Assembly (NCBI GenBank): GCA_944327195.1
Contig: CALVGV010000023.1
Coordinates: 1-36,488, forward strand
Direction of reading: 5' to 3'
Length of the DNA: 36,488 bases
Source: an uncultured Limosilactobacillus sp.
GTDB taxonomy: Bacteria > Bacillota > Bacilli > Lactobacillales > Lactobacillaceae
Position numbers and translations under genes: made by a program. The notes under the pieces are model-generated. The model did not search any database and was not told where the DNA came from. It saw nothing but the letters and a program-made list of their open reading frames with translations. Below are positions 14,571-25,488 of the stretch, piece after piece (positions within the stretch are counted from its first letter, which is position 1; each line of letters starts with the position of its first letter).

Positions 14571-14584
14571 ATTTCCCGGGAAAT
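14571..14584. other. Noc-binding site (NBS), perfect
   Basis: The 14-bp palindrome ATTTCCCGGGAAAT is identical to the Noc-binding sequence defined in Bacillus subtilis. It lies about 40 bases upstream of the GTG start of the Ppx-like gene, between it and the camS terminator. One of four perfect copies in 11 kb. Confidence 0.75.
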
Positions 14585-14672
14585 AAGGCGCGGCCGGGAA
14601 GGTTTCTCCTTTTAGAATACCACTGATCACCGGCCAACTATAAAGGGATTCATCAACTTTTTGATATTGAGC

Positions 14673-14717
14673 AAAAATAAACCGGGTCGCCCGTTTTCCC
14701 AACGGACAAACCCGGTT
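14673..14717 (-). terminator. terminator of the pcrA-ligA-camS operon
   Basis: Arms AACCGGGT/ACCCGGTT (14680-14687 and 14710-14717) close an inner GTCCGTT/ACGGGC-type stem. On the minus strand the hairpin is followed by TTATTTTTG. It lies about 15 bases past the camS stop. Confidence 0.8.
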
Positions 14718-14731
14718 ATCAGTTTAATTTT

Positions 14732-15847
14732 TTAGTAGGAATCGAAGACGTGGGTCAGCCACTTGCTGGAACCCGAGTTGCGGTAAACCACCGCCTGGAC
14801 GTCCGTGTCGGCCTTGATCACGATGTCGATCGGCACCCCACTCGGCAAGTACTTCTTAGCCGCGGAAGCAATGTAGTTGGTAAAGCTATTGATTTCCGTC
14901 TGGCTGTAGAACTGCGTCGTGATGGTGATGTGCATCCCCTGAAGGGTCCCGTCCTTGTACTGGGTTTGGGCGGTGACCCCGCTGATGTTCGGGAAGAAGT
15001 TCTGGATCTGACTCTTGAAGTTCGAGAAGGACCCGCTCGTCCCGGTGTTCGAGCTCGAACTCGACGAGGAGGTGCTGGTCTTTGGCAAGACAACGTTCTT
15101 GTAGTTCAGGCTGGTCCAGGACGAGATCTTGCTGCTGTTCGACTTGGCGTAGGCAAAGAAGGTCCCACCGACCAGGCTATCCTCGCCGGCCTGCCGGTAG
15201 AGGGCGATCACGATCGGCACGTTCTTGAGGGTCTTCTTCTTGCGGAGGCGCTTGAGGATGATGGCCGCGGCCTTCTTCCCCTCTGCTTCCCCCTTGGCCT
15301 TGGAGATCGACTTGGTGTAGTACGGCCCGTCGGTCTTCTTTTGGTATTGGTACTCGGAGTTAACCCCAATCCCGATGACGACCCCCTTGAGCTTCATCGA
15401 GCTGCCGCTTTGCTGGAGGTAGTCTTGTTCCTCAATCTGCTGGATGTAGAGCGGGTTCGGGTTGCTCGAGGAGCCCTTGGCCGGGTTAAGCCCGGTCTTG
15501 TTGCTGCTGGTCTTGCGGCCCAGCCAGTTGGTGACCGTGCTGGTCGACAGGTACTGCCCTTCCTGGAAGATGTAGGACTTGGTCGAGAAGAACTTCTTGG
15601 CGATGATGTTGGTCAGGCCACTTTCAAAGCTCTTCAGGTTGTAGGTGTTGTCATTTTGTTGCACCGCGACCCCGCGGGCCTTGCTGGTCCGGTAGCGACC
15701 GTTCTTGATGACGGCCTGGTAGGTGCCGCTCGTGCTCCCGGTGGTGGTGTAGCTACTGCTGCTCTTGGAGCTCTTGCTCCCGCAGGCCACCAGGGTGACG
15801 CTCGTCAACATGACCGCCGCGATCAGCGACCACTTTTTGAAACTCAA
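14732..15847 (-). CDS. camS: CamS family sex-pheromone-precursor lipoprotein
   Basis: 371 aa. The N-terminus is a classic lipoprotein signal: SFKKWS, a hydrophobic stretch, then the lipobox LVAC with Cys22 as lipidation site, followed by a Ser-rich linker (SKSSKSSSS). CamS proteins (B. subtilis YerH) sit on the outer face of the membrane. In enterococci and staphylococci the signal peptide of this family yields the cAM373-type pheromone; the role of the mature protein is not settled. A second Ser/Thr-rich run near 257-271 probably links two domains. The TTG start overlaps the ligA stop (TTGA) with GGAGG seven bases ahead. Last gene of pcrA-ligA-camS. Confidence 0.92.
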
Positions 15848-23880: not shown

Positions 23881-23892
23881 ATACCAACTAAC

Positions 23893-23921
23893 AGTTTACT
23901 TGATCAGGTCGCCGCCGTCAA
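23893..23921 (-). promoter_or_regulatory. rplM-rpsI promoter
   Basis: TTGACG (23916-23921), a 17-bp spacer and TAAACT (23893-23898) on the minus strand, a strong sigma-A type promoter. Its -35 overlaps the truA stop codon, so rplM-rpsI can be expressed independently of the ecf-truA genes. Confidence 0.75.
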
Positions 23922-24682
23922 TCCTTTTCTTCGCCGTAATCGACGCTCATCAAATAGAGGCCGGCCGCTGGGGCGGTCACCCGGGCCTGCTGGCGGTCCT
24001 TGGCCGCCAGGACCCGCGGGATGGCGTCGACCGGTCGTTGCCCGTTGCCGATCTCCAACAAGAGGGCGACCATGATCCGCACCTGGTTGTACAAGAAGCC
24101 GTTGCCGACGAAGTCAAAGCAGACCTCGCCGCTGCTCTCTTCGCGCCAGACCTTGGCCGAGTAGATCGTCCGCACGTTGCTTTTCACCTGGGCGCCGGCG
24201 GCCACGAAGGAGGTGAAGTCGTGCTCGCCGACCAGGTCCTGGGCCGCCTGGTTCATCACCGCCAGGTCGAGCGGGTACTTGTAGTGGGCGGTATAGTTGC
24301 GGCGGAAGGGGTTGACGAACTCCCCCTGCTGGACCCGGTAGCGGTAGTGCTTGTGGTGGGCCGAGAAGCGGGCGTGGAAGTTTTCGTCGACGATCTCAGC
24401 CTTCTTGACCATCATGTCCAGCGGCAACTGGCTGTTGAGGGCCCGGACCATCGACTCCTCGGGAATCACGAAGGGAAAGTCGAAGTGGGCCACCTGGTTT
24501 AGGGCGTGAACCCCCGAATCGGTGCGGCCGGAGCCGACCACCTTGATCGCCGGTTCCGGGTTCTTGGCCATCCGGTTGACGATCGTGACCAGGGTCTGCT
24601 CCACCGTCCGTTGGTGGGGCTGAACCTGGAAGCCGGCAAAGTTGGTGCCGTCGTAAGCAAAGGTAATTTTATAACGAACCAT
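23918..24682 (-). CDS. truA: tRNA pseudouridine synthase A
   Basis: 254 aa. It makes pseudouridine at positions 38-40 of the tRNA anticodon arm. The catalytic Asp55 sits in GSGRTDSGVHA; the N-terminal YDGTNFAGFQVQPHQRTVE and the later NGFLYNQVRIMV are family-specific. The ATG at 24680-24682 has GGGAG five bases ahead and lies two bases past the ecfT stop. An open frame continuing upstream overlaps ecfT in another frame and is not real. Fourth gene of ecfA1-ecfA2-ecfT-truA, the usual lactobacillus order. Confidence 0.96.
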   Translation of the reverse strand: MVRYKITFAYDGTNFAGFQVQPHQRTVEQTLVTIVNRMAKNPEPAIKVVGSGRTDSGVHALNQVAHFDFPFVIPEESMVRALNSQLPLDMMVKKAEIVDENFHARFSAHHKHYRYRVQQGEFVNPFRRNYTAHYKYPLDLAVMNQAAQDLVGEHDFTSFVAAGAQVKSNVRTIYSAKVWREESSGEVCFDFVGNGFLYNQVRIMVALLLEIGNGQRPVDAIPRVLAAKDRQQARVTAPAAGLYLMSVDYGEEKD

Positions 24683-24684
24683 GA

Positions 24685-25488
24685 TTACTCCCAAATGCGC
24701 AGGCCAATGAAGGCCAGGGTAACAAAAACAAGGACGGCCAGGGCCAGGCTGTCGCGGCGCTGCCAGTGCAGCTGGCGGTACTTGGTCCGCGGCTGGTTGG
24801 GGTCGTAGCCGCGGGCCTCCATCGCCACCGCCAGCTCCTCGGCCCGCTTGAAGGCGGCAACGAAGAGCGGAATCAGGACCGGCACCAGGTGCTTGGCCCG
24901 CTTGAGCAGGGAGCCGGAGTTGAAGTCGACCCCACGGGCCCGCTGGGCGTTCATGATCATCGTCACCTCGTTCATGATCGTTGGCACGAAGCGCAGGGCG
25001 ATCGAGAGCATCATCGCCAGCTGGTTGACCGGCAGGTGAAGGACCTTGAGCGGCTTGAGGAGGGCGGCGATCGCGTCGGCCAGCTCCAGCGGGGTGGTGG
25101 TGACGGTGATCACCGTTGACCCGGTGATGATCAAAAAGAAACGCAGCATCAAGAGGACCGCCTGGACCAGGCCGGCCGAGGTGACCGCCATGATCCCCCA
25201 CTGCCAGTAAACCGTCCCCCCGCTAGAGAAGAGGGCCTGGATCAGGGCGGTGAAGAGAATTACCCCCATCAGGCCCCGGACGCCGGCCCAGTACTTGGCA
25301 AAGACCACCCGGCTGAGGCGGATCACCGCCAGCAAGAGGACAATCAGCAGGAGGTTGCTGGCCCAACCGTGGGCAAAGAAGACTAGGACGACGAACCAGA
25401 AGCAGGCCACCATCTTCAGCCGCGGGTCGAGGCGGTGAATCAGCGAATTTCCCGGGAAATACATCCCGAAGAGGGCGCGGTTATCCAT
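24685..25488 (-). CDS. ecfT: ECF transporter transmembrane protein EcfT
   Basis: 267 aa membrane protein that couples the two ATPases to exchangeable vitamin-binding S components (group II ECF transporter). Hydrophobic segments at about 28-60, 70-90, 103-120 and a C-terminal helix near 245-262 frame a cytoplasmic coupling domain. Its two Ala-Arg-Gly motifs are seen in MNAQRARGVDF and AMEARGYDPN. It overlaps the ecfA2 stop by eight bases. A perfect Noc-type palindrome lies in codons for Tyr-Phe-Pro-Gly-Asn near the N-terminus (MYFPGNSLIHRLDPR). Confidence 0.95.
   Translation of the reverse strand: MDNRALFGMYFPGNSLIHRLDPRLKMVACFWFVVLVFFAHGWASNLLLIVLLLAVIRLSRVVFAKYWAGVRGLMGVILFTALIQALFSSGGTVYWQWGIMAVTSAGLVQAVLLMLRFFLIITGSTVITVTTTPLELADAIAALLKPLKVLHLPVNQLAMMLSIALRFVPTIMNEVTMIMNAQRARGVDFNSGSLLKRAKHLVPVLIPLFVAAFKRAEELAVAMEARGYDPNQPRTKYRQLHWQRRDSLALAVLVFVTLAFIGLRIWE
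25447..25460. other. Noc-binding site (NBS), perfect, inside ecfT
   Basis: ATTTCCCGGGAAAT, identical to the B. subtilis Noc consensus, within the first codons of ecfT. Many synonymous codons could encode Phe-Pro-Gly-Asn, so preservation of the full palindrome suggests selection at the DNA level. Confidence 0.7.

Follow-up and report, generated by a model that had tools for sequence, protein, structure and literature searches.

Noc keeps a cell from dividing across its own chromosome. As described in published work, Noc nucleates on its binding site (NBS), closes into a CTP-dependent sliding clamp, spreads and binds the membrane via an N-terminal amphipathic helix (PMC5540599, PMC7383237, PMC4331003). 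About 70 Noc sites by ChAP-chip, none of them in the terminus region, are reported for Bacillus subtilis (PMC4331003), and for Noc of Staphylococcus aureus a core consensus identical by ChIP-seq to that of B. subtilis, with 8-10 kb covered per site (PMC5540599). A plasmid with 8 NBS sites has been used to show the recruitment of DNA to the membrane.

The literature examined treats Bacillus, Geobacillus and Staphylococcus. No report on Noc sites in Limosilactobacillus was found in the literature searched, which missed most subscription papers, nor was a paper on tandem Noc binding sites in Bacillus found there; the available passages on nucleoid occlusion and lactic acid bacteria contain no description of sites. 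A nucleoid occlusion protein is among the proteins found in L. plantarum HC-2, another paper mentions nucleoid occlusion in its references alone, and in a review on nucleoid occlusion and Noc, Lactobacillus occurs only in the reference list. The sites predicted here, in a Limosilactobacillus genome, extend the Noc site system to lactobacilli. They lie in the window, the whole stretch of 36,488 nucleotides that was analysed, and the palindrome repeated in it is very probably, as judged from sequence comparison, a Noc-binding site, that is, a site of a known kind.

The palindrome in the window and in the whole genome

An earlier note on this DNA had placed four perfect copies of the palindrome ATTTCCCGGGAAAT and one copy with a single mismatch, ATTACCCGGGAAAT, in the window, and all five were recovered at the positions it gave (Table 1). 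The palindrome is identical to the core NBS of B. subtilis. The excess over chance was likewise borne out, about 0.0001 perfect copies being expected in 36.5 kb from base composition against the four observed, and of 139 other palindromes of equal half-site composition not one is present in the window. With up to three mismatches allowed, the window holds 8 matches, compared with a mean of 1.97 and a largest value of 6 in 100 dinucleotide shuffles; the only three matches further to the five copies (15938, 34071 and 34960) carry three mismatches each.

The whole genome (1,786,749 bases in 52 contigs, the window being contig C23) contains 27 perfect and 19 one-mismatch copies, as against about 0.005 perfect copies expected from composition in 1.787 Mb, and the reversed motif, used as a control, has 0 copies in the whole genome. 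The count of 27 perfect sites is the highest of 251 family genomes, with a runner-up of 17. As for the flanks, the remark that an A always follows the palindrome is correct for the window's four perfect copies; the copy with one mismatch, at 16688, is followed by T, and a fixed A is rejected as a general rule by the flanks of all 27 perfect genome copies. The outer bases of these copies (54 flanks) are T 24, A 19, G 7 and C 4; the real trend is for A or T at both outer sides. Besides, in 5 of the 46 sites the palindrome is extended by a third half-site that overlaps it (AAATTTCCCG, matching in 9 or more of 10 letters), namely G000:C1:106007, C2:43731 and C9:22579 (G000 being the genome under study) as well as 16688 and 20323 in the window.

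Table 1. Palindromes and other features with their coordinates, in the window unless a contig or locus is given
Feature	Position	Strand	Surroundings or content
Perfect NBS-like palindrome	14571..14584		overlaps ATG of the listed 513-aa ORF
One-mismatch NBS-like site	16688..16701		within ligA, codons for I-S-R-V-I
Perfect NBS-like palindrome	20176..20189		pcrA leader, downstream of TATAAT element (by eye)
Perfect NBS-like palindrome	20323..20336		between terminator-like hairpin and TATAAT element upstream of pcrA
Perfect NBS-like palindrome	25447..25460		within ecfT, codons for Y-F-P-G-N
Terminator-like hairpin	20341-20361
457-aa ORF	259-1632		FRG domain
Polyphosphate kinase gene and two Ppx/GppA-type genes	9824-14572	minus
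513-aa ORF	13031-14572	minus	Ppx/GppA domain III, its sole Pfam domain
Noc homologue, 315 aa	G000:C26:11869-12816		directly between gidB and second ParB
noc-parB locus	L028 10997-12816, G000:C26		noc and parB adjacent, no parA between

The Noc homologue

The earlier note had made its reading depend on a Noc homologue, and a noc gene is present in the genome: it encodes a ParB-family protein (Table 1) with a ParB_N domain and a GERR sequence. This protein scores 308.9 bits to the NCBIfam model of the Noc family, TIGR04285, slightly below the curated cut-off of 315 bits, compared with 235.5 for the neighbouring ParB; with in-frame neighbouring pieces added, 11 of 12 genus genomes pass this cut-off, the genome under study being the exception. 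Among solved structures, the closest to it are the Noc chains 7ol9, 7nfu and 7ng0 (E 1.7e-64), with the best ParB at E 9.3e-45. At the residues aligned to positions 173, 179, 184 and 201, the homologue has Q, K, T and R where the ParB paralogue has R, Y, G and G, so that three of the four NBS-specifying residues are present, with T at one of the permissive lysine positions. The study that defined these positions reports that NBS preference needs, besides Q and R, just one lysine, be it at 179 or at 184 (PMC7383237), a combination that the homologue possesses with its K at 179. The N-terminus reads MAFSLFGFGSK, and MAFSLF also starts nine other Nocs of the genus and the Noc of L. mucosae; a simple hydrophobic-moment sum over its first 11 to 14 residues gives low values of 0.27 and 0.16, which do not bear out an amphipathic helix.

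By gidB, some 0.8 kb upstream of noc, the genome carries a perfect site, and in the relative G008 a perfect site falls within about 140 bp of the corresponding position. Regarding the locus itself, the noc and parB matches are also close in G008, G009 and G014 and about 1 kb wider apart in several other members of the genus; parA may have been lost from the noc-parB locus in some members of the genus. The noc locus of G014 is 95.5% identical to that of Limosilactobacillus mucosae DSM 13345.

Co-occurrence of the palindrome and Noc

The 251 family genomes were searched for the perfect motif and for matches to TIGR04285 with an E value of at most 1e-60. As this model picks up Noc as well as ParB, two matches stand for Noc plus ParB; a Noc over the TIGR04285 cut-off was confirmed in 118 of the 251, and the two-match genomes serve as a proxy. 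The perfect motif occurs in 105 of 135 two-match genomes, 30 being without it, as compared with 1 of 116 genomes with one or no Noc/ParB-type protein (Fisher P 1e-41, a value that overstates the evidence since the genomes are related). The exception among the latter, G199, is a fragmentary assembly (87% complete, about 350 contigs) from a genus whose five other sampled members are all two-match genomes. The same pattern is found within genera, with the motif in 0 of 2 one-match and 8 of 8 two-match genomes of genus g34 and in 0 of 6 and 2 of 2, respectively, of genus g47, and it is hard to explain otherwise than by a link between motif and Noc. Outside the family, three genomes with a protein over the Noc cut-off gave the motif in two (2 and 6 copies) and not in the third; in the remaining 13, the motif turns up as one copy in one genome. 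That noc and the sites are both missing from parts of the family amounts to a natural experiment on the role of the sites.

Distribution between origin and terminus, and clustering

Origin bias is known from five single-contig genomes of the genus (G008, G113, G081, G018 and G014), in which the origin was marked by dnaA, the 52 contigs of the genome under study being unordered. At up to one mismatch, the origin half of these five relatives holds 87 of their 109 sites and the terminal quarter 10. Genome by genome, the bias has P values of 0.005 in G008, 0.0003 in G113, 0.00005 in G081 and 0.03 in G018, and it is not significant in G014 (6 sites, P 0.20); when perfect sites alone are counted, just G008 and G113 reach significance. 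The terminal quarter contains 6 of 36 sites in G008, 2 of 11 in G018, 1 of 6 in G014 and 1 of 30 in G113, G008 being the least clear of the four biased genomes with its 6 terminal-quarter sites against 9 if they were even. In G113 and G081, the longest stretch free of sites is centred close to the point opposite the origin; in the other three, G008, G018 and G014, it is not. The even abundance, terminus included, that the earlier note held to count against its reading is therefore absent in four of the five complete relatives, yet sites are thinned out at the terminus and not missing from it altogether. In G008, the equivalent of the window is located at 0.40 of the origin-to-terminus distance.

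Counted at up to one mismatch, the window does have five sites within 11 kb and none elsewhere, as claimed. Further clusters exist in the genome, however: contig C2 has 5 sites within 21.8 kb, C21 has 4 within 9.2 kb and C26 has 3 within 8.4 kb (again at up to one mismatch). In simulations that placed 46 sites and ignored contig ends, five sites in 10.9 kb anywhere in the genome had a P of 0.006 under uniform placement and 0.03 under a linear origin gradient, and the three site pairs within 160 bp had a P of about 0.001 under either uniform or origin-weighted density. The close pairs are 25 bp (G000:C21:32047/32072), 37 bp (C10:28729/28766) and, in the window, 147 bp apart. The suggestion of a strong loading zone thus keeps a cluster denser than chance (P 0.006 to 0.03) and loses its singularity, in view of the other clusters and of ten relatives without the five-site arrangement. 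It is the quantity and the bunching of the sites that are unusual, the bunching being real but moderate, and the claim of a special cluster is weaker than that of Noc-site identity.

Gene surroundings and conservation of the sites

The minus-strand genes of the window include those for polyphosphate kinase, two proteins of the Ppx/GppA type, a CamS lipoprotein, an ATP-grasp protein, pcrA and ecfT (CbiQ family), with ligA, IF-1 and ribosomal protein S5 likewise on the minus strand. A possible phosphoribosyltransferase on that strand scores just below the Pfam cut-off, and further genes there are recognised as coding for other ribosomal proteins. The gene pcrA encodes a helicase of DNA repair and replication. 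As the sites lie over an ORF start, within ligA and ecfT and on both sides of a TATAAT element upstream of pcrA, there is no single type of position. The promoter scan listed no promoter at pcrA of the window, despite the TATAAT element seen by eye, and hairpins of the terminator-like kind next to the site at 20323 are no more frequent in the window than in shuffles. Apart from the sites, the 513-aa ORF has no tblastn match in the stretches of ten relatives around pcrA, and a homologue may be elsewhere or absent in them. The 457-aa ORF with an FRG domain is of a kind often found in defence or mobile loci.

The cluster was sought in stretches from ten relatives, those of G001, G003 and G004 being 9.9, 14.8 and 12.3 kb long owing to contig ends, and the five-site arrangement is absent in all ten. 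Perfect or one-mismatch sites number 1 in G005, 1 in G006, 3 in G008, 1 in G009 and 0 in the other six, the three of G008 falling within about 11 kb of the matching region and one of them being perfect. The codons of the ligA site are identical in G005 and G008 and one base off in G009, with no site at this position in the remaining seven of the ten relatives. At the ecfT position, the sequence was readable in six relatives, all of which have Y-V-P-x-x there and lack the site, so that among the seven genomes compared it is found in the window alone; about 80 bp upstream of ecfT, G006 does carry a perfect site. In G008 and G009, a perfect site directly adjoins a TTGGTATAAT element upstream of pcrA (L064 12655 and L065 9719). 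It is near, but not at, the place of the window's sites and beside a TATAAT element, and the sites of G008 and G009 possibly affect the transcription of pcrA.

When the 46 sites of the genome are mapped without gaps onto G008, 7 fall within 250 bp of a site there, involving 6 different sites of that genome, against an expectation of about 0.44. For 26 of the 46, a homologous gene lies inside the site stretches of G008, which make up about 14% of its genome, a figure based on best matches at 45% identity or more that paralogues may inflate. The exact positions of the sites turn over quickly. A perfect site occupies the same mapped position in a conserved gene at G000:C5:35081 and G008:C1:77667, the proteins of the two species being 75% identical there.

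Interpretation

The identification of the palindromes as Noc sites came through the analysis well, with a Noc homologue in the genome, a motif that tracks Noc in 251 genomes and an origin bias in complete relatives. It is well supported because of the co-occurrence of motif and Noc, the origin bias and the three of four specificity residues, one of the two permissive lysines being reported as enough. It is highly likely that the five palindromes are NBSs; on the model of B. subtilis and S. aureus, Noc would nucleate on them, spread from them, tether the chromosome to the membrane and block the division ring. In such a scheme, the homologue encoded on C26 would nucleate on each site, close into a CTP-dependent clamp, spread over several kilobases and expose its N-terminal segment, so that this part of the chromosome would be tied to the membrane and kept clear of the division ring. 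The Noc domains of five sites in 10.9 kb would then fuse into a single one about 20 kb long.

Whether such a domain would do anything that scattered sites do not is a separate matter. That Noc binds the sites and that their bunching is simply the unevenness expected of about 46 origin-biased sites, the cluster having no role of its own, has in our judgement an even chance of being right: the same genome has other clusters, five sites in 10.9 kb have a P of 0.03 under origin-weighted density and ten relatives are without the full arrangement, against which stand the P of 0.006 under uniform placement, the three close pairs, improbable under either model, and the three sites of G008 in the same region. 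Rather unlikely, albeit worth stating, is the bolder proposal that the lineage expanded Noc sites into local arrays, which would serve as separate anchors of the chromosome arm to the membrane, pcrA being inside such an anchor, and that sites are still being gained, even by an amino acid change in conserved proteins, as from Y-V-P to Y-F-P-G-N in ecfT. A genome with dense and paired sites would in any case be a good place to ask if clustering matters.

Other readings depart from nucleoid occlusion altogether. The sites could mainly be local operators, with Noc or another regulator beside promoters tuning genes such as pcrA, as two window sites flank the TATAAT element upstream of this gene and the G008/G009 site abutting TTGGTATAAT overlaps the expected place of a -35 element (both by eye); yet two of the five window sites are well inside coding sequence (ligA and ecfT), the promoter scan is without a promoter at the window's pcrA, and neither the genome-wide co-occurrence with Noc nor the origin bias is expected of an operator, all of which makes this improbable. 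Still less credit can be given to the palindrome being the site of a different protein that merely co-occurs with Noc. The link between Noc and the sites does rest on sequence, but the palindrome matches the core NBS of B. subtilis, the correlation holds within g34 and g47, where Noc comes and goes, and the specificity residues fit. As to an artefact of chance or composition, with four copies where about 0.0001 were expected and 0 of 139 palindromes of the same composition, it is rejected, its probability being practically nil. The sites of the window are thus best regarded as predicted Noc sites, a fresh instance of a known system with lineage-specific enrichment.

Comparison with known systems

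The resemblance to Noc and NBS of B. subtilis lies in the 14-bp core site, in the Q/K/R specificity residues, in the place of noc directly downstream of gidB and near parB, and in an origin-biased scatter of sites, seen here in relatives. Compared with the approximately 70 bound sites of B. subtilis, the 46 sites in 1.79 Mb (at up to one mismatch) are a count of motifs and not of binding. Further differences from B. subtilis are the pairs only 25, 37 and 147 bp apart, a terminus that in some relatives is thinned and not empty, the T at one permissive lysine and the lack of a parA between noc and parB. With the Noc of S. aureus, which has a role in replication control, the core site and the origin-biased distribution (again in relatives) are shared, while that system counts 41 measured ChIP loci and the present sites are predicted from sequence. 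ParB-parS is akin through the protein superfamily, which is the same, and through the ParB paralogue encoded by the next gene downstream of noc; the parS sequence differs from the ATTTCCCGGGAAAT palindrome, and the parS-like sites of the genome (2 without a mismatch, 5 with one and 1 with two) are at separate places.
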